From the NCBI GenBank assembly GCA_015143295.1, contig CM026562.1, positions 6,362,639 through 6,426,638 of the forward strand: DNA of 64,000 bases. Direction: 5' to 3'. The notes under the pieces were generated by a model. The model saw only the letters and a list, made by a program, of their open reading frames with translations. It searched no databases and was not told where the DNA came from. Source of the DNA: Tetracentron sinense (Eukaryota; Streptophyta; Magnoliopsida; Trochodendrales; Trochodendraceae). This document shows, one piece after another, positions 15,686 through 50,330 of this stretch (position 1 is its first letter; each line of letters opens with the position of its first letter). The position numbers and the translations under genes were made by a program.

Positions 15686-16378
15686 TTAGCTAAACAGGAA
15701 AATTGTCCGTGTTTAATATTTAAACGTTTATCCAATAAGCCTTTATGAAATGTATAATCTAAAATTTGAACTTGCAATAACTACGAAAAAAGACAAACAA
15801 AAATCCCCTCTTTAATAACATTACACGTGGTATAAAATTAATATACGAGTTTGAGGTGGTCTCACTTTGTGTTTTTGAGTCCGGACTCCGCCTACGGATC
15901 TCTTGATAAACCATGACAGGAAGACTGCACTTCATGTAAATGCCATTTTAGTAAATAAAACTAACAAATAAGGTACTACGACTACGAATTTTTTTGCAGA
16001 CTTACTAAAATGCCCCTCTAACAGATTACGTGGCAATCATGAAATTCAAAAAAAAAAAACTACAAGAGATTCCGACTGACCATCGGTGGTTGGGGTTGTG
16101 AGCGTGACACTGAGAGACAGAGTACCGTTGAAGGTGTTTTGGTTGTCGTTATTATATTCAAATTCCACGCAGACAACTTTATTCCTAACCTTCTTCCCCC
16201 ACGCTCTTACCTAAAACCTAGTCTGATTCTCTCGATCTTCACGAGCCATTTGTGATTTTCTTCAAAATAAAATCTCAAGTGGTGATGGGAGCGTGAACAT
16301 TCTGTTTTGAATCTGCCCTGTAGGACCCACATGTGTGAAATCGAAGGATGTTTGGTTATATATATATATATATATATT
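15686..16378. other. Intergenic stretch
   Basis: No gene seen. An AT dinucleotide run occurs at 16357-16377. Confidence 0.4.
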
Positions 16379-17209: not shown

Positions 17210-19460
17210 TTCTGGTAGTGGGGGCAATCGATGGTTCATGAAAAATGGTAGTAGTTGTTAATGAATTTGTTGAGAATTATTAGGTTGGCACAAAATATTT
17301 TGAGTCTAGGCGGATAGGGTTTGGGGTCGTAGGTCCCCAATTCTTTTTAGGACTAAGTTTTTGGATCATTTCGCACATACATTTCATACATATCTTACGA
17401 GTATTGTTTATCTTTGTTTACAGGATAACTATCCCCTTGCCCCATGGTTATGTCCCATCAAATAATTAAATAACATGTTCTATGTTTAAAAGATATATTT
17501 TATTTTCAATAGTCGTTGCTCACTTGCCTCGTTGCTATACTTATTAAATAATTGAATAATATAGTATAATTAGTTTAGGGACAACTACATCTTGCCATAA
17601 TTATGTCTAATAAAATAATAAACAACTTAATATATAATTTTTTTTTCTTTAAGCACCTGCATGGATGCATGAATATCGGATCAGAGTCAATTGTAATCGC
17701 ACCCACAGATCAACACGTGTCATTTTTAACCATTATTAATTGTGGTTAAGATTTACTAATCTTGGGATTCAACAATATATCTTTGGTTTTAGAAGAAAAA
17801 AATATTTTAAAAAATATTTAACTTGGTTAAGAACTTTAAATCTTAAGATTACTATTTTAAAAAAAAAATAAGTTTACATTATTGAACCCCAAGGGTTAGT
17901 GAATCTTAACCACAGTTAATAGAGGTTAAAAGGGACATGTGTGACCTGTGGGTGCGATTGAACTCTCCCTGAGTTCATGTCCCCATTCCCATGGCAAGAT
18001 CGGATCACAGCCAATCGCAATTGGACTTGGGACAGTTCAATCGCACCTATAGGTCAACATGTGTCATTTTTAACCTCTATTAGTCATAATACTAACCCTT
18101 AAGGTTCTAACCTTGGTTTTTATATATTTTTTTTAAAAAATTAACCCTGCGGTTAGAATTTCTTAACCCTAAGGTTAATTTTTTAAAACATCTTATTTAA
18201 AAAAACAGATTGTTGAATCTTAAGGGTTAATGAATCTTAACAATGGTTAATAGGGGTTAAAAGGGACAGGTATTGACTTGTGGGTGTGATTGAACTCTCC
18301 CCGAGTTCAATCACGATTGGCTGTGATGCAATTTGTGATTCAATCTCTCCCAAAGCTATGTGAAATTTTTTTTTTTAAATCCAAAAGTTCAGTAGGGGCA
18401 CGTACCCCCACTTGGCTCCCCCCCGTCTATGGGGGCACGTGCCCCACTGAACTTTTGAAAAAGATTTTATTTATATATATATATATATATATTTTATCAG
18501 AAATGTTTGCTCCATTCGCAGTTTTCCAAGACGCAAGGTGGTGGCAACAAGTATTAAATCTCCTATTATAAGGTAGCAATACTACGTGTTGCACCCACTA
18601 TGAGTCTTTGGAAAAATGTTGACTTATTCTGCCTTGGGCTAGCACTCCTCATTTTTTATTAGGGCATAACTAGGAGAAATGATGCATGCCCTCTGATCCT
18701 ATCTGGTTGGGATTGCACACATAGAGCCCTTTAACTATATATCTTTTTTTTTAAAACTCTTAATTAAGAAGTATCAATTGTTAGGCTTGATATTTTTTTC
18801 CCAAAAACCAATATTATTAGATTGTTGAATCTTAAGGGTTAGTGAATCTTAGCTACAATTAATGAGAGTTAGAAGGAACATGTGTTGACTTGTGCGTGTG
18901 ATTGTCGTAACTCCCGAACCTTTAAAAAAAGCATTTTTTTTATACTAAAAATATTATACTGTAGTATTTAATTATTTAGAGGAGTGCTAGTCCTAGACGC
19001 ACTAAGTCAAAAAAATTCCAAAGACGTAAAGTGGGTGAAACACATGGTGTTGCTACCATATAACAGGGAGATGGTTTGACACTTATTGTCACCAACTTGC
19101 ATCTTTGGAAGATTGCGAGTAAAGCTAATATTACTCAATTATTTAATAAGGCATGACCATGAGGCAAGGGGACAACCGTCCTCCAAACATTTGAAAACAA
19201 AATATATGTATTTTATATTGTCATGTTATTTAATTATTTAATTATTTAATAGGACAGAACCATGAAATAAGGGGATAGTTATCCCGTAAATATGGAAAAA
19301 CAATACACGTGCATAAAATGGCCCAAGAACTTAGTCATGAAATAATAATAATTAAAGGGCTCCTCCCTTGAACCTCCGTTCCCCTAAACCCAAAATATTT
19401 GCACCCGTCTAATAATTCTCTAAAATTCCATCAATAATTACCATCATTTTTAATCAATAA
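17210..19460. repeat. Large nested inverted-repeat region
   Basis: 17210-17580 pairs as an inverted copy with 19140-19460: shared order GAGAATTATTAG, CAAAATATTTTG, CTAAGTTNTTGG, GGATAACTATCCCCTT. Inside it a tighter inverted pair, 18505-18655 and 18975-19135, has arms of about 150 bp (TCGCAGTTTTCCAAGACGCA against TCGCAATCTTCCAAAGATGC; GTGTTGCACCCACT; GCTAGCACTCCTC). Between and beside them lie partial copies of the mini-Helitron interior (17690-17760, 17884-17985, 18000-18075, 18205-18330, 18830-18900), all with TGAACTC/GAGTTCA and AACNTGTGTCNTTTTTAAC words. Probably successive non-autonomous insertions; no coding sequence. Confidence 0.55.
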
Positions 19461-19959: not shown

Positions 19960-20700
19960 CTAGTGGACAGCACGGGCGATGCACACAGGAAATAAATGGA
20001 ATGGGAGAGAGACTGGGAAGATTGACCCTAGTGAGAGCATTTTGAAATTAACATAAAAAATATATATATATATATATTTTAGGTATAGAAGAAACATTTT
20101 AAATGTAAAAAATTGTGAGGGACACACTTGTTATAAAAATATTGCATAAGGACATTTTGAGAATCAAAATGCTTTAGAGGTATTTTGGGTATATTAAAAA
20201 TGGAGGGCATTTTTGGTATATAAATTTGTGAGACATTTCAGAAATGAAGGAAATGAAATATAGGCAAAAATAGGAGTATTTGGGGTTTAAAATTTTGTGA
20301 GGGACATTTTAGGTTTGGAAGTTTGACTTAGGGGCATTTAGGAACTAAATAGTATTCGGGACATTCTCACAATGAGAAAAAAATTGAGAGCATTTTGGTT
20401 ATAAAAGCCTGACTTAAGGGCATACTTAGAACAAATAACCAATCATCGTATTGCCTTTATACATGAGTACTTATAGTTTTGGAGTTAAACATGACATTTT
20501 CATTATTATATGAGTAAGGGTTAATTTTGGAATTAAGCACAAAAGTTAATAAATCTATTGTCATATATATGATTAGGGGTAAGTTTGGAATTAAGAAAAT
20601 ATCAATTCACGTTTTTAACATGTCATTCTCATTAAGGGGTAATATGGGAATTAAACATAATATTCAATCAATTTTTTGTCGCATATATATAAGGACATAC
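19960..20700 (-). mobile_element. Probable Helitron relic, 3' end at 19960
   Basis: On the minus strand a 3' end reads GTGTGCATCGCCCGTGCTGT, CCA, CTAG|T. This matches the hairpin plus CTAG of copies A-C. The body contains degenerate short repeats of GGGACATTTTNGG / GAGGTATTTTGGGTAT. The 5' end was not found, so the right limit is approximate. Confidence 0.45.
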
Positions 20701-21608: not shown

Positions 21609-21806
21609 ATTGGATTACGTCTGGACATGGCGCATATCCGAGGCCTAACCCCGGGCATCCATTCATCATCCGGCATGTGGTGCTAAAAAAAAATAGAAAA
21701 GTCATTTCATTTTCTCCCCTATGTTTTATTTTTTTTCAATTGATATCTCTCCCTTTTTATCACCACATGACAGATGATGAATGGACACCCAAGATAATCT
21801 AATACC
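21609..21806. mobile_element. MITE of the 'GAAGTCATTTCATTTTCT' family, copy 1
   Basis: Left ATTGGATTACGTCTGG...GGGCATCCATTCATCATC and GGCATGTGGTG pair with the right half (reverse complement TAGATTATCTTGGG...GTCCATTCATCATC, GTCATGTGGTGA). The centre carries AGTCATTTCATTTTCTCCCC, present in all copies of this family (24103, 31896, 32287, 32511). Family membership is clear; superfamily is not. Confidence 0.5.
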
Positions 21807-24102: not shown

Positions 24103-24645
24103 GCCTCGGATTATCTCTAGCAAAGCCAAAAGTCTCGGGCAATCACAAAATATGTGACATGTGATGATAAAAAATGAGATAAGTCATTTCATTTTCTTCC
24201 CAATATTTTGATTTCTCCTTACTTGATATCTCTCTCTATTTTTTTCATCACTTTATCGCCATGAATCTAGGAAGCACGGATCCGGATACGGGATATGGGT
24301 ATGATACGATACGATACGGATATGACAATACGGTAAAACCTAAAAAAAAGGATACGGTGTACGGTCAGGATACGTCTGTAATTTTTTTTTAAATAATAAT
24401 AATACTATATCTTGTATTATAATTACAAAATAACCATTGGTTCAGTTTTGTTTATGTATAAAAAATATCATGTCCATGCAAAAACAAAAGAAATAGGGTC
24501 ATCTCATTTTCCACTAAGCAAAAAGAAAGTTATCCTATCATCCACTAAGCAAAATATAGAGAAGACCATGTCCATGCAAAAACAAAAGAGATAGGGTCAC
24601 ACCCCCGGGTCTCCAAAAAAACAAAAAAAACAAAGCATTCATTTT

Positions 24646-24885
24646 CAGAGGTCAGACTCACCACCACCACGCACCCCTTTCACATGGCTCTGATATCATT
24701 CACTCACAGGACGAGACACAATCAATGAACAAAGCACACAGGTTACCGCCTATTGAATCTATAGCTAAATCATCTTGAAAGATACACTAACATAGCAGCA
24801 TGAGTGAAAGAGCTATATCCTAGAATACATTTAAACTATCAAGTGTTTAGTTGCACATGGTAAAACAAAACATCAAACGATATAT
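24646..24885 (-). repeat. Terminal redundancy of the caulimovirid, downstream copy
   Basis: Direct repeat of 31290-31529 at a constant offset of 6644 bases. The primer-site counterpart (24686-24698) has one change (TGATATCAGAGCC). On the minus strand an AATAAA occurs just before its start, possibly the viral poly(A) signal. Confidence 0.85.
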
Positions 24886-25657
24886 TTATTGAAAACTTGA
24901 AAGCATATACAGTACGATTAAACGTGAACTACCAGTTCCTTAAACTGAGATGGTAGATGGACCGCTCTAAATATCCAGTGTGGATACCCGAGTCTTACAC
25001 GAGTCTACTCAGTTAAACTGGAGTGCAGTGAACATATAACTATAAAATAAAAACTTACAACTAGAGAATAACTCAGAAGGAACTCAGGACTGAGGAGTTA
25101 CAGTGGACTGAGAACTGAACTGAGGACTAAGGACTGAAAGAAGATGAAGAGAAGAGATTACAACTCAAGGGCTCAGTGTAACTGATATCGGATACAAGGC
25201 CATACAATGGACTTAAATAAAACAAGAAAAGTAAACTAATTATTACATCTTGAACGAATCTTGAAAATAGTCTTCAACTTTGCAAAAGTAAATAGTGATC
25301 TGTCTTGAACTTTGAAAAGTAAATCTTGAATAGTAATGTTGAACCGAATCTTGAACAGTAGTCTGTCTGGAGCTTTGTCAAAAGTAAACAGTAATCTTGA
25401 ACACTGTAGCGAATCTTGAAATCTTGAACGAATAAATAAAGCTGCTGTCTATCTGGAGAGTACTGGTTGTCAGGAGAAAGAAAATTCCTTTCGGTGGCTT
25501 TCACTGGAGGATAAATACTTTTACGGAGAGTTAATCTGAGAATGCATGATTATGTAATGCTGCTGGAAGTTAAAAGATAACCAGTAGAAGACTGAAATAT
25601 CCTTTAACTATAAATCTGGAAGAACTTCTGGAGAAGAATTTTGAATGGCACCAAAGG
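24886..25657 (-). promoter_or_regulatory. Caulimovirid intergenic region downstream of ORF2
   Basis: No ORF of note. The plus-strand sequence contains several degenerate GAATCTTGAA / AGTAAACAGTAATCTTGAA units between 25250 and 25440. In caulimovirids the single promoter usually lies in the region before the primer site, so this stretch is the likely former promoter. No precise TATA box is claimed. Confidence 0.4.
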
Positions 25658-26959
25658 CTAGACTTGTGATAAATTAATGTCATAACAGTCATCTTCATTT
25701 TCTTGAGCATAATTAACTGAACCATTATCACTGTTACTATCATCTGAAAGATTAGCTAATTGTTCTTGAAGTTTCTGACGAAGTTCTTTCTTGGATTGAA
25801 CAGAAGCTAAGGAAGTCTGGCTCTGACTTTTTTGGATTGCTAACTTAGCTTTAGATTCTGCAATGGGTCTTGGAGAATATTTTCGAGTAAAAAACTGCAA
25901 TACAGCTTGCGAAGAAGATGAAGAAATATCCTATTTGTCCCACCATTTAACAAAAAATCTTCTACCTAAAGTAGGAAAGATAGGTCCAGGAAAAATAGTA
26001 TAATCCCAAAGGGAAATCCATGCTAAGGAAAATAGGACATTGAAAAAATAAAATAGAGGAAATTTGGATGAAGGAGGAATAGAAAATCTTTGGCTAAAAA
26101 GATGAAAACCTTCTGCAACAGATGGAGGGAAAATATCCGAAATGGGGCCAAACATGTTCCACCAATCAAGAAACCAATTGGGAATATCAAGACTAAAACC
26201 TGATTTAAAATAGAATGTCCACGAATGCTGGAGTTTCTTATTTTTGAAATAAAAGCGATTAAACCATGCACGTTGATAATCCCAATAATTGAACGAGGAT
26301 GGAAATTCATTATGAGCTGGAATTTTAGAAAATCTTTTGGAAATAGAAGGAGATGGTCCCCAAGCAGAAAGGGTGAGAACCTGGATCAATTGACAAGTAG
26401 AATATGAAATCATACTGGAATCTTGATTATCTGGAAAATGCTTGAATTTACAGGAACCTGTATCATATAAAATATATTCATAAAATTTCTGAGTTTTGTT
26501 AAATCCGGACTCAATATAATGCCAATTGGGAGGAAAACAGGTCTTAACTACTTGTACTGGAGAAGCATTATAAAGTTCTTGTTCTATGGAAAAAAGAGGA
26601 AAAATTTGAGTTTTCTGAATATATTGAGATGGATTTAAAACTGGAGGTTTTTCAACAGGAAGGACTTGTACAGATTTTTTCTTTTCAAAATTAGAGGAAA
26701 CAATAGGTTGTTGATTAGAAGAAGAAGATGCAATAGTAGCATAAGACTTAACTGGAATGGAAGGAAATTTTGATTCATTAAGCTGGAGAATTTGAAAAGG
26801 ATTAGGAGATGGTTTGATAATAATATCTGAAGAGGAGGTAGGCTGACAATATGAATCAACAGTGGTATGTTGGATAGAACTGGTTTGTGATGACGAAACA
26901 ACATAAATTTCTGGCTGATTAAGAATGACTTTTTGCTTTGAAGCTTTCTTGGGAGCCAT
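25658..26959 (-). pseudogene. Caulimovirid ORF2 (unknown function), one in-frame stop
   Basis: Starts MAPKKASKQK at 26959 and runs 342 codons to a TAG at 25931-25933. It continues in the same frame for a further 80-codon stretch to a stop at 25658. The N-terminal third is Ser/Gln-rich. The middle is rich in aromatics (PNWHYIESGF, WDYQRAWFNRFYF, WNMFGP). The C-terminal part is charged and acidic (DDSNSDNGSVN). It overlaps the end of the RT-RNase H frame by about 40 bases. No enzyme motif is recognised; florendovirus ORF2 proteins have no known function. Confidence 0.65.
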
Positions 26960-28220
26960 AATTTCCCTGTAAGAATTCACGAGTAAGAAAATCTGGAATG
27001 GTGTTAGCTTCTCCTTTAATATATTCAATCTTGAAATCAAAACTGGATAAAATAGCTTGTCATCTAGCAAATATTTGTTTAGAAGCTATATTTTTAACAT
27101 CTTTTTGTAAAACACTTTTAGCGGCTTGACAATCAACTCGGACTAAAAACTCTTGATTAAGCAAATCACTTTGAAATTTGGAAATACATAAAACAATCGA
27201 TAAAATCTCCTTTTTTACAGTGGAATAATTCTGTTGAGCATAATTCCAAGTACCAGATGTATACCTAACAATTTTTTCTCATCCTTGGACTAATTGTTTG
27301 AGAATTCCTCCGAACCCTAATTCAGATGCATCAGTTTCTACTATTTTAAAGGCATTGGGATCTGCTAAGACTAAACATGGAAGATCTTTTACTCTAGCTT
27401 TGATTAATTAGACTATCTTAGTATGTTCTAGAGACCATGGAGGAGAATCTTTTTTGAGTCATTGTCTTAAAGGGGCACTAATTTGGCTAAGATCTTTGTA
27501 AAATTCTGCAACATAATTAAGACTGCCTAGAAACCTTTGTAATTGTTTTTTGTCTTTAATCTCATCTGGAAATTTATCTGCAAATTGAATGGATCGATCA
27601 ATGGGTATTATAGTACCTTGATTAATATTATGCCCTAAAAATCTTATTTTAGTTTGGAACAAATGAATTTTAGACGAAGACAAAACTAAACCATGAGTTT
27701 TTATAACTTGAAGGAAAACATGTAAATGTTTCCAATGTTACTCAATTGAATTAGAAAAGATTAATACATCATCTATATATACAATGGAGAATTCTGTATA
27801 TGGAGTAAATATCTCATTCATAATATTCTGGAATTCAGATGGGGCATTCTTAAGACCAAATGGCATAACATTCCATTCATAATGTCCAAAGGGAACAGTA
27901 AAAGCAGTTTTATACCTATCTTGTTCATTAATTTGAATTTGCCAAAATCCTGATTTCATATCAAATTTAGAAAAGATTTTTGCTTTATAAATTCTTTGTA
28001 ATAAATCTTTTTTATTTGGAAGTGGGTATCTAATCCATTGGAGGGCTTCGTTTAATGGTTTATAATTAATAACTAATCTAGGAGTACCTCTTTCTAATTC
28101 TGTATTTTTCTGGACATAAAAAGCTGAACAACTCCATAGAGATTGACTTTTACGAATTAAATTCTTATTTAATAATTCTTGAATTTCTTTTTTACAATAT
28201 TCTAAAAGTTCTTGATTCAT
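26919..28220 (-). pseudogene. Caulimovirid reverse transcriptase-RNase H, several in-frame stops
   Basis: The frame from 28220 keeps classic RT motifs: LVINYKPLN, FSKFDMKSGFWQIQI, and the catalytic YIDDVLIFS. A stop follows at 27736-27738. The same frame continues (RFLGSLNYVAEFY) to another stop at 27457-27459. RNase H then follows (VETDASELGFGG near 27330) with more stops, ending at 26919-26921. RT copies the viral pregenome into DNA in the cytoplasm and RNase H removes the RNA. The 5' end abuts the protease frame in an ATGA overlap. This probably reflects a one-base loss in what was one polyprotein, not a designed overlap. Confidence 0.85.
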
Positions 28221-28825
28221 TTGTATGGGTTTGCTTTAGTTGGTATTTTATTTTCATTAAATTCTGAAGTATAGGGGAGACTTACTATATATTTATTTCT
28301 ATGCCAAAACGCTTTAGGAAGATCAGAACAAACTTCTGTTTCTAATTTAGTTTTAAAATTACTAATTTTTTGCTGTAAAGATTTAGATTTTCTTAATTGG
28401 AATTCAATATTTTTAAACTCTTTTTCTTGTTGTAAAAATTCTAAATGGATTGTCTTTTGCTGAATCATATCATCTAAAAAATTTAACTGTCTAGTCATCG
28501 GATAGGTAATGAATCTAAAAATTATATCTTTGTCTAAGAGTCTAGTAAATATTCCTGTAGTATCTATTTTTGAAATAGGTTGTATAGAATGTAGGAATGG
28601 AAGTCCTAATATTAATTCTTGCCTTAAATCTTGGACCAAAATAAAAGATTGTTGAATACAAATTCCTTCATTACAAATAGAAGCTTGGGAAAGTTTATAA
28701 TTAATATGCATATTAATTCCATTAGCACTAGATAATATTTCTTTAGTTTTTTCAAAGTATTGGGTAGGGATAAGACCTTCTTGAACACAATTTAAATCTG
28801 CACCTGAATCAACTAAGGCAATCAT
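28217..28825 (-). pseudogene. Caulimovirid aspartic protease region
   Basis: Begins near an IALVDSGADLNC segment, where DSGA is the retropepsin active site. GLPFLHSIQP follows about 80 residues later, matching the second conserved strand. The enzyme would cut the viral polyprotein. The frame is the same as the coat frame but separated from it by stops around 29009-29017, and it ends in a stop at 28217 where the RT frame starts one base out of register. Confident from the motif and position. Confidence 0.8.
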
Positions 28826-29014
28826 ATTTTTAGTGAATGAGTGTTTTATATTTAAGGTGATATTAATATACCATTTTTGAAAAGTAATGACAGGAGGTTC
28901 TGGTTCAAGATTATATATGGTTTCACTATTATTTTTAAGTTGTTGAATATTTTCTTTTATCCTATTAATATCATGTTGTAATTCTGGTACATGGACTTGA
29001 TTTATAGACTATTG

Positions 29015-30265
29015 TTATATAGAGATTTTTTGTGTATTCAAAACATTTATAGTTGGACAAGACTTACAATGATATATATTGTGACCTTTCTTGTGACAAT
29101 GAAAACAAAAAAGATTTCTTTTATAATTAGATGAAGTGTGATGAATAATTCTTTTATGCTTATTACGTTTTTTATATTGATTGTATATTAAAGGATTGTC
29201 TGATTGAAATTGACATAATTTCTTGATAGGATTTTTTAATGGAATTTTCTCTGCTTTTTTCTTTTGAAGATTTTTATGATTTGTTTTAAGTTTTGTTTTA
29301 AATAATTCTAACTTCTTATATTTATCTTGTTTTTTATAATCATTAATTAAAATATCTAATTTTTTGATGATTTCTTGAGGATGTTTTAATTCTTTTAGTG
29401 GGATAACTGAAATAGGACGCAATCTAATATAATTATTATCTATTATTTTATCTGGAATATATTCATATGGTTTCTTATACTTTGCGGATATTTCTTGACA
29501 TGTATGACACCTACCATAAATTCCTAATGAATAACAATCTCTACAATTAGGATTATAATAATCTAGCTGAGAAGCATGAGCTTCTATGACTGATTGAGAT
29601 GGAAACATAAACATATTCATATTGTTTCTTTTACAGTAATCTATTAACCATGGAAAGAAGGCAAGATGCCTTCTTGTCTTTTCTACGTCTGTTAAATAGA
29701 ACTTAATAAATAATTCTTGACTAGTCTGGTTGTAAAAATCTAAAAACCACAATCTTTGATTCCTATTTTCTGGAGAATTAATATCATTTTCTAGTCTTGC
29801 GTAATCTATCTGAAACGATCTATCAATAGTAAGCATGTTACAGTAAGACACCCTAGGAGGATTCATATCTGAATATGTAGGAGATGGACAACTGACTGGA
29901 GTATTTTCTGGACTACTCGTATTTTGGTTATTATTCTGTTCTGTATAATATGGTTCTGGAATAAGAGAATTTCTTACTCCTTCTAGATTAGTATGGAGGG
30001 GAACCTGTTCAGGTGTAGACCTGACTGGTTGTACATGAACGTATTCTGGATTTGGAGGTTGAGATACATATACATATCCCGGGTTTTTAGAATTGTCTTT
30101 ACACTCTAAAATATCATCTGAAGTATGGATAAATGGAGTATTGCGCGGAAGTCTTGAAGTATCTTCTAAATGTATTGTGCTAGATGTACTAGGAATATTG
30201 GAACAAGAAGATCTGGGAGGTAGAATACCTAGATGGAAATGAGATTCTCTGGAAGGCATCCTCAA
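29015..30265 (-). pseudogene. Caulimovirid coat protein with zinc knuckle
   Basis: A 416-codon frame. Near its C-terminus a CCHC zinc knuckle (C-X2-C-X4-H-X4-C: CFHCHKKGHNIYHC) follows a Lys-rich stretch, as in caulimovirid coat proteins. A second C-X2-C pair set (CRDC...CHTC) lies mid-protein. The N-terminal part is Ser/Pro-rich. It is out of frame with the movement-protein segment upstream and closed by two stops downstream. Confidence 0.75.
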
Positions 30266-30300
30266 AGAAGGATTCCTAATTAATCTGGGAAATCTTAACT

Positions 30301-31112
30301 CTACATTGCCCTTACCATGATCAATGATCTGGTTAGACTCCTGGACTGGTATAGGAGGAGGTCAGTCACATGGACCAACTTCCAACTTTCTGGAAACTCA
30401 ATATCTTCCCAATTAATTATTCTAAGCTGGATCTCATTATCTGGATGACCATAAATGATCTCATTAAACTTGTTATTCTTGTTAAAATGGTGAATTGCTT
30501 TTGGATTTAACGTTGTATTCATGACCTTATAACTAATTCTGTAAACTAGAACTAAGGGTCTGGATCCTGGTTTCATGTTTATACCTTTAGTATGGACATC
30601 TAAAGTTAAACTATCTATGATATGAGGATCACGTAAATCTAAAGATAAATCTGGATAACAATTAAAATAGATTGGACCTTGGGCTGTACTAGTCTAAATT
30701 GCTCCTAAAAGGCTATCTGAAAACTCTAAGAACCTACAGTCTCTAAGGCATAGTAAAATGGAACTATTAATCCCTAATCTGGTAAGTGGCTTGGCCGCCA
30801 CCTGGATCATGCCAAAGTGTATAAAGTTGAATTTTTACTAAGATTATGTATAGTATGCTTATCTAATAATTTATAAGTATTATAAGTATGATTCCTAAGA
30901 GGTAAAGTGCGCTCAACTGTTTTTATCGAATGTGAGGAGAATAGTTTAAATGTACCTAGTCTGTAGATTTCCTCTACTGCTACCTTAGGTATATTCCAAT
31001 TATTTAACTCGGATTCACTTTTCACAAACATGTGTTCTTCACTATTCATTGTGTCGTCATGACAGTCAATCTCTCGAGAAGACATGCTACGAGGGAAGAA
31101 ACGATGATTCAT
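30301..31112 (-). pseudogene. Caulimovirid movement protein, frameshifted
   Basis: Three blocks. The first, from MNHRFFPRS (31112), runs open to 30807. A second block in another frame contains LLCLRDCRFLEFSDSLLG and is cut by a TAG at 30694-30696. The third runs in that same frame to 30301 (PLVLVYRISYKV). Position and sequence style fit the 30K-type movement proteins that widen plasmodesmata. At least one frameshift near 30800, one stop, and a frame change before the coat region disable it. Confidence 0.65.
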
Positions 31113-31289
31113 CCTATTCTACAGCACACAGGAGATTTCAATGGTGGGCTAAGTTTCTGACAGCTTGTAGAAAATCAGTGTGACCAAAAAGTGACTTACA
31201 TCGGCTAACGGCTCACACCACGGCCTTGCGCCTGCTGCACTGCACCACGCCTATCTACGCTTAACAACCACCAACTCCGGTCAATATTG

Positions 31290-31529
31290 CAGAGGTCAGA
31301 CTCACCACCACCACGCACCCCTTTCACATGGCTCTGATACCATTCACTCCCAGGACGAGACACAATCAATGAACAAAGCACACAGGTTACCGCCTAGTGA
31401 ATCTATAGCTAAATCATCTTGAAAGATACACTAACATAGCAGCATGAGTGAAAGAGCTACATCCTAGAGTACATTTAAACTATCAAGTGTTTAGTTGCAC
31501 ATGGTAAAACAAAACATCAAACGATATAT
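31290..31529 (-). repeat. Terminal redundancy of the caulimovirid, upstream copy
   Basis: Direct repeat of 24646-24885 with about 5 mismatches. Contains the intact primer site. Confidence 0.85.
31329..31342 (-). promoter_or_regulatory. tRNA-Met primer binding site of the caulimovirid
   Basis: The minus strand reads TGGTATCAGAGCCA, complementary to the 3' end of plant initiator tRNA-Met. This is the site where caulimovirid minus-strand DNA synthesis starts. Confidence 0.85.
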
Positions 31530-31895
31530 ATATATATTCATAGCCGTATCCCGACGTATCCATGTCGTATCGGAGCCGTATCCGAAATAAAAAAAATGTT
31601 TTTAATTAACAGGATACGTTTAGGCCGTATCCCGTACGTATCCTACCATATCGGAGGCGTATCCGTATCGGATACGTATCGGATACGGGTACGGAGGCCT
31701 ATTTGAAGTATCCGTGCTTCCTAGCCATGAATCAAATAATGTATGGAGAAGTCAAAATCATAGGCCCCATGAAATGACTTCTCCAACCATATTGTGGTAG
31801 CCCGAGACCACCCTTTCCGACTTCGCCAAAGAGAATCTGAGGCCTCAATTTGATGATAATGTATAGGACTGAACTTCAACCAAAGTACTTCTCTT

Positions 31896-32184
31896 GCCTC
31901 GGATTCTCTCTAGCTAATGCCAGAAAAGTGGTCTCATGCCACCACACATTAAGAGACATGTGGCTAGAGAAGTCATTTCATGGACCCCATGATTTTGACT
32001 TCTCCACACATTATTTGACACATGGTGATAAAGTAGTGAGATAAAGGGGGAGAGATATCAAGTGGGAGAAGTCAAAATCAGGGGAGAAAATGAAATGACT
32101 TCTCTCCTTTTTTATGTCACATGTCGCTTAATGTGTGATGGCTCAATACCACTTTTCTGGCATCAACCAAAGAGAATTCGAGGC
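31896..32184. mobile_element. MITE of the 'GAAGTCATTTCATTTTCT' family, copy 3 (289 bp)
   Basis: GCCTCGGATTCTCTCTAGCT on the left pairs with GCCTCGAATTCTCTTTGGTT (reverse complement) on the right. GCCAGAAAAGTGGT and CACACATTAAG follow in both arms. Subterminal AGAAGTCATTTCAT is present in both halves. Arms are at least 70 bp. Confidence 0.7.
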
Positions 32185-32286
32185 CTTTGATAAATTGCCA
32201 CGTTGACATTTTGGTACATAATAAATCGCTACGTACACCCACCTCTTGTGTCGTTGGTGGGGTGTGGCCTATCTGATGACAAAAAA

Positions 32287-32506
32287 GGGAAAAGATTTGC
32301 TCTGGTGGATGCTCGAGCCAAGCGCTCAAGCATCCACAAATCATGGAGCATGTAGCTTTTAAAAGGGAGGAGATATCAATTGGGGAGAAGTCAAAATCAT
32401 GGGGAGAAAATGAAATGACTTCTCCCCCAAATTATCGCTAGGTGTCGCATGATTTATGGATGCCCGAGCACCTAGCTCGGGCATCCACCAGAGCGAATCT
32501 TTTGCC
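32287..32506. mobile_element. MITE of the same family, copy 4 (220 bp)
   Basis: AAAGATTTGCTCTGGTGGAT then GCTCGAGC pairs with AAAGATTCGCTCTGGTGGAT then GCCCGAGC. The core shares GGAGAAGTCAAAATCATGGG and TGAAATGACTTCTCC with copies 1-3. Confidence 0.65.
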
Positions 32507-32510
32507 GACA

Positions 32511-32705
32511 AAAAATGATCTCAGATTTCCACATATCATCCAGCATGTGGCGATAAAAAGAGAAGTCATTTCATTTTCTTCCCATATTTTTTACTTCTCA
32601 CTTGATTTCTCTCTCCTTTTTTATCGTCACATGTTGATTGATGTGTGGAGCTGGAGACCCATTTTTTGGCATCTGCCAAAGACAATCGTGAGCCCACTGA
32701 TGAGG
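32511..32705. mobile_element. MITE of the same family, copy 5
   Basis: Contains GTGGCGATAAAAAGAGAAGT, CATTTCATTTTCTTCCC and TATCGTCACATG, as in copies 1-4, and lies directly next to copy 4. Its ends pair poorly. Confidence 0.45.
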
Positions 32706-48387: not shown

Positions 48388-50330
48388 TCCTCCCCCCTTA
48401 TGAGAATTTCTTCCTCGAAATTTAAGTTCCTTATTCGAATAGGTGATGACAATTTTCGAGGACTTCAACTTCCCTTTCCCATATAGCTTCCTCCTTGAAG
48501 TGATGCTCTCATTGCAAGAGCACAAGATGAATTACCTTAGTATACAGGACTTGCTCTTTTTGATCTAGGATTTGAGCCGGTTGCTCAACAAGAGTCAAAT
48601 TTTCTCGGACTTCCAATGGATCTAAATCAATGACGTGCGAATGATCTAAAATGTACTTCTTCAACATGGAGATGTGAAAGGCATTATGCATACTTGCCAT
48701 GTGAGATGGCAAGGTGACCCAATAAGCAACTTTCCCAACCCGAGTGATGATCTCAAAATGACCCACATATCTCAGGCTGAGCTTGCCTTGCTTACCGAAC
48801 CTCATTACGCTCTTTGTAGGAGAGATCTTGAAAAACACAAAATCTCTAACTCGGAATTCAAGATCCCTCCTACGAGTATCGGCATAACTCTTCTGCCTAC
48901 TCTAAGCCGTTTTCAATATCTCTTTGATCAATTGGACTCGATCCACGGTCTCACCAACGATCTTGAAACCCAGAAGTTTCCTCTCACCAACTTCATCCCA
49001 ACACAGCGGTGGACGAAAACTTCTCCCATAGAGTGTCTCAAACGGTGCCATCTGAATGTTGGCTTGATAGCTATTATTGTAGGCAAATTCAACCAACGGC
49101 ATGTGATCATCCCAACTACCCCGGAAGTCTAACATGCAAGCTCGTAGTATTTTTTCTATGATCTTGTTCACCCTCTTAGTTTGCCCATCTGTTTGCGGAT
49201 GAAACGCTGTATTGAAATCTAACCGGGAACTCATGGTCAGTTGAAAACTCTTCTAGAACCTGGAAATAAATCTCGGGTCTCGATCAGATACAATGCTGAC
49301 TGACACTCCATGCAAATAGACTATCTCCTTGATGTACAGATTCGCAAGTCGGTTGCGATTGTACGTGGTCTAATATGGAAGGAAATGAGTTGACTTGGTG
49401 AACTTGTCAACTATGACCCAAATAACATCAAAGTTTTTTGTTGTCCTTGGCAAACCAACAATAAAGTTCATTGAGGTATTTTCTCACTTCCACTCGGTAA
49501 TAGGAAGTGACTGAAGAAGTCCCGTCGGTCTCCTGTGTTCGGCTTTTACTTGCTGACAAACCAAACACTTGGATACATAGGTAGTCACATCATTTTTCAT
49601 ACATTTCCACCATAAATATTTCTTGATGTTCGGTACATCTTGGTACCTCCTATATGGATAATGTACTTAGACTTGTGTGCTTCGTCTAGAATCTCTCTTT
49701 TCAATTCTTCATTAGCCGGAACACAAAGTCTATCCTTGAAGGAGATCCCACAATTTCTCTAGGAGAAGTCCTCAAACCCATTACTAATCGAATTGTTCAT
49801 AGCTGCGTCCAGCTCTTCATCCTCCTACTGCGGGTCTTTAATCATATCCAAGATGGTTGGCCTAACCATGATGTTAGCCACCAAGGCTCCAGATGCTCCA
49901 ACACTGAAACCCATGTCAAGGTTAGACACATCTTCAAGTAACTTTTATTCTTGGATCATCAAATGAGCCAAGAATCCCATAGGTATTCGGCTTAGCGCAT
50001 CCGCCACCACATTTGCTTTCCCCGAGTGGTATTAGATAGAACAATCATAATCCTTAAGGAACTTCATCCAGAGGCGTTGCCTCAAATTCAGCTCCTTCTG
50101 CAAGAACAAATACTTCAGTCTCTTGTGATCGCTGAATACTTCAAACTACTCATCGTACAAGTAATGTCTCTAGATTTTTAGAGCGAAAACAATTGCTGCC
50201 AACTCTAAGTCATGGGTAGGGTAGCTCTTCTCATGGTCTTTCAATTGTCAGGAAGCATAGGCAATCACCTTCTCGTATGACATAAGAGCACAACCTAATT
50301 CAATGAGTGAGGTGTCATTGTACACCATAA
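48388..50330 (-). pseudogene. Chromovirus (Tekay/Del-like) RNase H-integrase-chromodomain, 5'-truncated
   Basis: From about 50325 downward the minus strand reads an RNase H (CALMSYEKVIAYAS, LKDHEKSYPTHDLELAA, GKANVVADALSR), then integrase (FNTAFHPQTDGQT, LVEFAYNNSYQA, APFETLYGR) and a chromodomain-like tail (KEEAIWE, then ENCHHLF). Many stops interrupt it. Reverse transcriptase, protease, gag and the 5' LTR are missing, so the element was truncated near 50330. It is followed directly by its purine tract and 3' LTR. Confidence 0.85.

Follow-up and report, generated by a model that had tools for sequence, protein, structure and literature searches.

A caulimovirid copy nested in a MULE-like inverted-repeat element and a MITE of Tetracentron sinense

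The window analysed here, a stretch of 64 kb of Tetracentron sinense DNA (C12:6362639-6426638 of its assembly), carries a three-layer nest: a miniature inverted-repeat transposable element (MITE), interrupted by an element with terminal inverted repeats (TIRs) that resembles Mutator-like elements (MULEs), which in turn encloses caulimovirid DNA. The nest is real and well resolved, and on present evidence it is a nested insertion of the ordinary sort. Very probably it was built by three successive insertions, the viral DNA having been taken up into the A/TA-rich core of an element already in place, most probably as filler during break repair. Transport of the virus by the element as cargo is unsupported among the places and matches searched. 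The three layers had been proposed in an original prediction made from the letters alone, and the TIR and duplication pair, the rejoining MITE halves and the internal viral copy were all recovered. Relatives lacking the virus or the transposon allow each layer of the nest to be checked.

The outer MITE and the inverted-repeat element

The features of the two outer layers are as follows.

24103-24267, plus strand: left part of the outer MITE, up to and including the first 10-bp duplication copy (flank alignment)
24258-24267, plus strand: target-site duplication GCCATGAATC, left copy, exact
24268-24642, plus strand: left arm of the MULE-like element, 375 bp, with the 14-bp TIR, GGATACG-type subterminal repeats to ~24375 and an inner part that ends A-rich
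31534-31723, plus strand: right arm of the MULE-like element, 190 bp, with subterminal GGATACG/CGTATCC repeats and the 14-bp TIR
31724-31733, plus strand: target-site duplication GCCATGAATC, right copy, exact
31734-31843, plus strand: right part of the outer MITE (flank alignment)

The TIRs TAGGAAGCACGGAT occupy 24268-24281 and, in inverted form, 31710-31723, and delimit an element of 7,456 bp (24268-31723). The predicted 14-bp ends, perfect 10-bp duplication and element length were confirmed at these coordinates. A perfect 14-bp inverted pair together with a 10-bp direct pair has this single instance in the window at spacings of up to 20 kb, and the same criterion found none in 40 first-order Markov sequences. 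The duplicated GCCATGAATC has two exact copies in the 64 kb, a number reached in 0 of 100 shuffles. GGATACG is present three times near the left end, three times near the right end together with six copies of its reverse complement, and once in the remaining window; this concentration near both ends indicates that the two arms belong together. Both arms also align with virus-free elements from the same genome. A direct repeat in the left arm (24457-24501 and 24555-24599, 98 bp apart) is shared with the virus-free relatives.

When the MITE flanks were joined with one copy of the duplication, they aligned across the joint to an inverted MITE at ~31895-32185, so that the halves rejoin outside the element as predicted. 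The neighbouring MITE has the single site ACCATGTGTC, against GCCATGAATC twice around the element, and by this alignment it reads as a paralogous empty site. Further MITE-related sequence was seen at ~21665-21766 and 32287-32686 when the window was compared with itself.

Duplications of 8-11 bp are given for MULEs in the available portion of PMC6446971, and that of the element is 10 bp, in the window as in the related copies L001, L005 and L007. With this duplication, inverted ends and short members in high copy number, the element resembles non-autonomous MULEs. It differs from MULEs with long TIRs in its perfect TIR of 14 bp with subterminal GGATACG repeats, which is short for the superfamily. 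A MULE transposase had no match among the 17 stop-to-stop stretches scanned in the window (those open for at least 130 amino acids, plus the viral ones), the genome not having been searched for one. Since no transposase was seen, the Mutator superfamily label is a putative one. Thirteen letters of the TIR, used as a literature query, matched no paper.

Relatives of the element were sought in the window's own assembly (1,161,278,568 bases). The 14-bp end has 1,397 exact matches there (718 + 679), against three (2 + 1) for the reversed control. A sample of 100 of these matches fell into 82 places, all on contig C1: 15 with both exact ends close together and 67 others (62 + 5). Thirteen of the 15 exact pairs are full-size elements of 436-650 bp that align, with gaps, with both window arms; the remaining two are of 161 bp. 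The point at which the virus sits in the window is covered by 12 of the 13, L005 being without it. Virus-free copies, which the original prediction had suggested looking for in relatives, were thus found in the same genome.

The flanks of the 15 exact pairs agree at all ten duplication letters in three cases, which share one site or its reverse complement, at nine in four, eight in three and seven in one (at least seven in 11 of the 15), and at six in two, five in one and three in one. At least seven letters also agree in 42 of the 62 single-TIR places, where the partner end was chosen partly by that match. Both window arms were matched in 32 of these 62, one arm in 13 and neither in 17. The TIR family is a high-copy one, with full-size virus-free members mostly of ~430-660 bp. 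Sampled single-end members whose partner shares at least seven of the ten letters are ~120-910 bp long. Members of ~120-180 bp that share these ends form a second size class, among them L004, L009, L017, L057, L064 and others on C1.

An assembly error, by which the nest would be an artefact of repeat joining, could draw on the repetition of all three layers (the MITE in the window, the TIR and the virus in the genome), but the arms, the duplication copies and the MITE halves are consistent, on both sides, with a single locus, and the insertion point agrees with that of the virus-free relatives. Such an error is exceedingly improbable.

The caulimovirid copy

Between the arms lies the viral copy, with the following parts.

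24643 to ~31533, minus strand: decayed caulimovirid copy, one 6,644-bp circuit plus 247 bp
31287-31533, minus strand: terminal redundancy at the viral 5' end, with the exact primer-binding motif at 31331-31342
30900-31533, minus strand: leader, predicted to form a single long hairpin (-203.6 kcal/mol, z -4.2 against 20 shuffles)
30304-30834, minus strand: movement protein, two pieces in different frames (Pfam PF01107)
29018-30361, minus strand: open stretch of 448 amino acids at the coat-protein position (DUF7588, PF24496, E 1.6e-10)
28220-29008, minus strand: aspartic protease (PF00077, E 9.1e-8)
27462-28235, minus strand: reverse transcriptase, two same-frame open pieces split by a stop (PF00078)
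27063-27407, minus strand: RNase H, two pieces in different frames (PF17917, PF17919)
25934-27085, minus strand: ORF2-like (second open reading frame) open stretch of 384 amino acids, 3 homologues
24643-24889, minus strand: terminal redundancy at the viral 3' end, with a one-mismatch primer-binding motif at 24687-24698

The two 247-bp terminal repeats define the viral edges; they are equal at 240 of 247 positions (97.2%) and differ at 7. As the distance from start to start is 6,644 bp, the copy corresponds to one circuit plus 247 bp. A reading of these direct repeats as the long terminal repeats (LTRs) of a retrotransposon does not hold: the repeat itself contains the primer-binding motif, and the ends lack the TG...CA form.

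The motif TGGTATCAGAGC, at 31331-31342 on the minus strand, is the sole exact match; with up to two mismatches there are five matches, against 3.2 expected. We take it to be the primer-binding site for initiator tRNA-Met, as in Caulimoviridae. Movement protein, protease, reverse transcriptase and RNase H follow in the order of this family on the minus strand, and an integrase had no Pfam match in the pieces scanned. The virus predicted to lie inside the TIR element is thus present, as its gene pieces and primer-binding motif lie between the arms.

Among these pieces, the movement protein match is above the curated cut-off at 30304-30693 (E 3.4e-6) and below it at 30697-30834 (E 0.0014). The two reverse transcriptase pieces gave E 5.2e-27 and, below the cut-off, 7.1e-4. 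For RNase H, 27063-27278 matched PF17917 (E 5.6e-13), and 27282-27407 matched PF17919 (E 7.6e-7) at 0.2 bits under the cut-off. The DUF7588 stretch is probably the coat protein, to judge from its position; no homologous proteins were found for this piece. The ORF2-like stretch has as best homologue a Tetracentron sinense hypothetical protein, with 78% identity over 34% of the query. Relatives of the reverse transcriptase piece numbered 1,665 proteins; among the 120 matches listed, few are named, these from plants, and none is named as a virus. Three stretches of viral contigs fitted the pattern of this piece, none of which was confirmed. Weak Pfam matches to PF11918, PF12741 and PF22658, all below cut-offs, were taken as chance.

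The leader makes up 634 nt at the viral 5' end and contains an inverted match (30941-31070 with 31342-31483, 72%). Caulimovirid pregenomic leaders are expected to fold into a long hairpin. An extra insertion was considered for the inverted match and set aside, two arms of the leader hairpin being the better explanation.

The arrangement resembles that of florendoviruses in the available text of PMC4241990: movement protein, coat-protein position, protease, reverse transcriptase and RNase H and, after these, an ORF2 in which no known domain is convincing, with edges at (TA)n and many copies per genome. The same source gives florendovirus genomes as 7.2-8.5 kb, and the corresponding proteins would be 205-216 kDa for ORF1 and 45-58 kDa for ORF2; the window has a circuit of 6,644 bp and an ORF2-like stretch of 384 amino acids. 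Because the size falls short, the copy is called florendovirus-like and no more, a label given by layout and not by a reverse transcriptase tree, although a decayed copy may have lost sequence. It further differs from florendoviruses in its target, the core of a TIR element. The description of a complete-length viral copy in the original prediction therefore holds for the extent, one circuit plus 247 bp, but not in full: the 6.64-kb circuit is below florendovirus size and the frames are now broken by stops and frame changes.

Entry of the virus into the element core

Two short sequences mark the junctions.

24637-24642, plus strand: ATTCAT at the left viral edge, the same 6-mer recurring at 31536-31541
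31524-31537, plus strand: (AT)7 run at the right junction of virus and element, where L048 and L087 carry TA runs

The right ATTCAT stands at the end of the (AT)7 run, within 2 bp of the viral edge. At the position of the virus, virus-free members have an A run, followed in some by TA units, a single ATTCAT and the right arm. Fourteen cores could be read by a strict pattern: ATTCAT is present in six, two ATTCAT in none, and a TA run of at least 10 bases in two (L048 and L087), both with the run followed by one ATTCAT at the insertion point. A looser pattern (82 matches at 52 loci, many outside the core) added a third TA run, in L014, and again no element with two ATTCAT. The paired ATTCAT is either a 6-bp duplication from a staggered break or a right-hand sequence whose left copy is templated filler. 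Elsewhere in the window, TA repeats of 18-20 bp lie at 16357-16376, 18472-18491 and 20060-20077, with no match to the virus there on self-comparison.

Ten viral edges were picked from other loci, and six of them adjoin (TA)n. The first of two options in the original prediction, integration of the virus into the AT-rich core of the TIR element, is supported by the virus-free element copies and by element-free viral copies that often end at TA repeats. For florendoviruses a landing bias to (TA)n has been published and explained by capture in break repair (PMC4241990; PMC10377300, both as available in part). The right viral edge of L035 is at, or a few bases from, the window's viral position 31533 and is followed by a TA repeat. 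At 12 of the 27 further viral loci (L022, L024, L025, L028, L030, L032, L033, L037, L040, L041, L043 and L045, including two that overlap) homology breaks off at the primer-binding site, window 31336-31342, unlike in the window copy; these look as if linearised at the replication gap. At L027, L029, L031, L033 and L039, inverted and rearranged viral copies are close neighbours, some of them only a few bases apart.

The ATTCAT pair, with one copy adjoining the left viral edge and one within 2 bp of the right, is also what would be left by integrase-type entry, in which a borrowed retrotransposon integrase makes a 6-bp duplication; one ATTCAT in six of the 14 readable virus-free cores and two in none agree with this. 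However, the viral ends are unlike processed retrotransposon termini, and other copies end variously, 12 of 27 loci at the primer-binding site and six of ten edges at TA repeats. In addition, a 6-bp match is weak in an A/T-rich setting, and templated filler would look no different. Integrase hijacking has been proposed for caulimovirids, and entry as an LTR-retrotransposon/caulimovirid chimera with borrowed integrase is suggested for badnaviruses in Musa, in the available portion of PMC10377300, which names no DNA-transposon route for caulimovirid entry. As in the chimera route, a transposable element here helps to place viral DNA; that route concerns the integration of a chimera by a retrotransposon, whereas here a DNA-transposon family is the target. 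Integrase-type entry, which bears on the viral step alone and leaves the nest unchanged, is considered highly unlikely. Retroposition of viral RNA was rejected, as the viral 3' edge has no A run.

Capture in repair is preferred on the basis of the site, the sibling viral copies at TA repeats and the published florendovirus work. Microhomology at the TA run would have guided filling of a double-strand break. The repetition of the viral end and the flanking ATTCAT copies would fit end joining of over-length viral DNA at a staggered break or with templated filler.

Cargo transport, nesting and the order of events

The second option of the original prediction was that the element mobilises the virus as cargo. 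The virus would have entered an element copy elsewhere, and the 7.46-kb composite would have jumped into the MITE with family transposase acting in trans. Such a jump would leave intact TIRs and a 10-bp duplication on either side of the entire composite, and here both are perfect, in better condition than in most of the relatives sampled. The element places were searched for viral sequence (blastn with the window's viral pieces, E 1e-4, one-end places being read ~1.5 kb inward), and none of the 82 had any. The ends and duplications enclosing virus at other loci, for which the original prediction had suggested a search, were thus absent from this sample. A 300-bp probe of the right junction, half virus and half right arm, was scored on 40 of 1,139 candidates. 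It gave 42 matches: one spans the joint (the window itself), 39 have the viral half alone, including one at the opposite end of the window copy, and two have the arm half alone.

Viral copies elsewhere stand apart from the element as well. Element arms were found within ~1.5 kb of none of the 27 other viral loci (some overlapping), and a TIR with up to two mismatches in none of 11 viral flanks, taken where the window's viral pieces have no match. The flanks resemble one another in two short pairs alone, of 104 and 64 bp. The original prediction would discard cargo transport if no other locus had the virus inside this element and viral flanks elsewhere were unrelated to it; on that basis simple nesting remains, although the refutation, which covers the right junction and 100 of the 1,397 ends, is incomplete. 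The sampled single-end members of ~120-910 bp and the missing transposase match among the 17 scanned stretches likewise speak against cargo transport, which we regard as very improbable.

Pack-MULEs similarly hold foreign sequence between two MULE-like ends. In the window, unlike in these, the viral DNA interrupts the element core with edges of its own and shows no sign of capture or multiplication by the element; neither the 42 scored matches nor the 82 places included a second composite. In the literature found, as judged by titles and the openings of abstracts, no virus located inside a MULE or other plant DNA transposon, or moved by one, was encountered.

Several observations weigh against three successive insertions with repair capture. 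The duplication (10/10) and TIRs (14/14) of the window element are better kept than in most of the family, and hence this copy may have moved recently, perhaps after the virus had entered. If the composite had moved by cut-and-paste, no second copy would remain, and the search for one covered 40 of 1,139 junction candidates and 100 of 1,397 TIR matches. Four of the ten viral edges read are not at TA, and plain end joining does not predict the left-edge ATTCAT. A TIR of 14 bp is also shorter than usual for a MULE, and the scanned stretches showed no transposase.

With three insertions as the preferred reading, the order is as follows. A MITE of ~275 bp was already in place, as the alignment shows. 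A non-autonomous MULE-like TIR element jumped into it, leaving the 10-bp duplication now seen. Caulimovirid DNA of florendovirus-like layout would then have been captured at the mapped site in the A/TA-rich core. Between the two viral ends 7 of 247 positions differ (2.8%), which corresponds to ~2.1 Myr (million years) at 7e-9 substitutions per site per year and to 1.1-3.6 Myr over three rates, on the assumption that the ends entered without differences. Among the element arms sampled, the highest identity to the window's is 91.2% on the left (46 sampled) and 89.0% on the right (34 sampled). Since the viral ends are 2.8% apart and the arms no more than 91.2% identical, the element lineage is probably older than the viral insertion. 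Each endogenous copy is in principle one integration, duplications and hybridisation aside, in the available text of PMC10377300.

A transposon's own core can thus supply an A/TA-rich target for florendovirus-like DNA. If such cores proved to be preferred targets, the spread of the transposon would be linked to where viral fossils accumulate. The further proposal that TA-rich MULE-like cores are portable landing pads for caulimovirid DNA, and that the element then carried the virus as cargo, is very doubtful.

Away from the nest, a retrotransposon polyprotein remnant with a Tf2-1-like SH3 domain lies at 48509-48901 on the minus strand.

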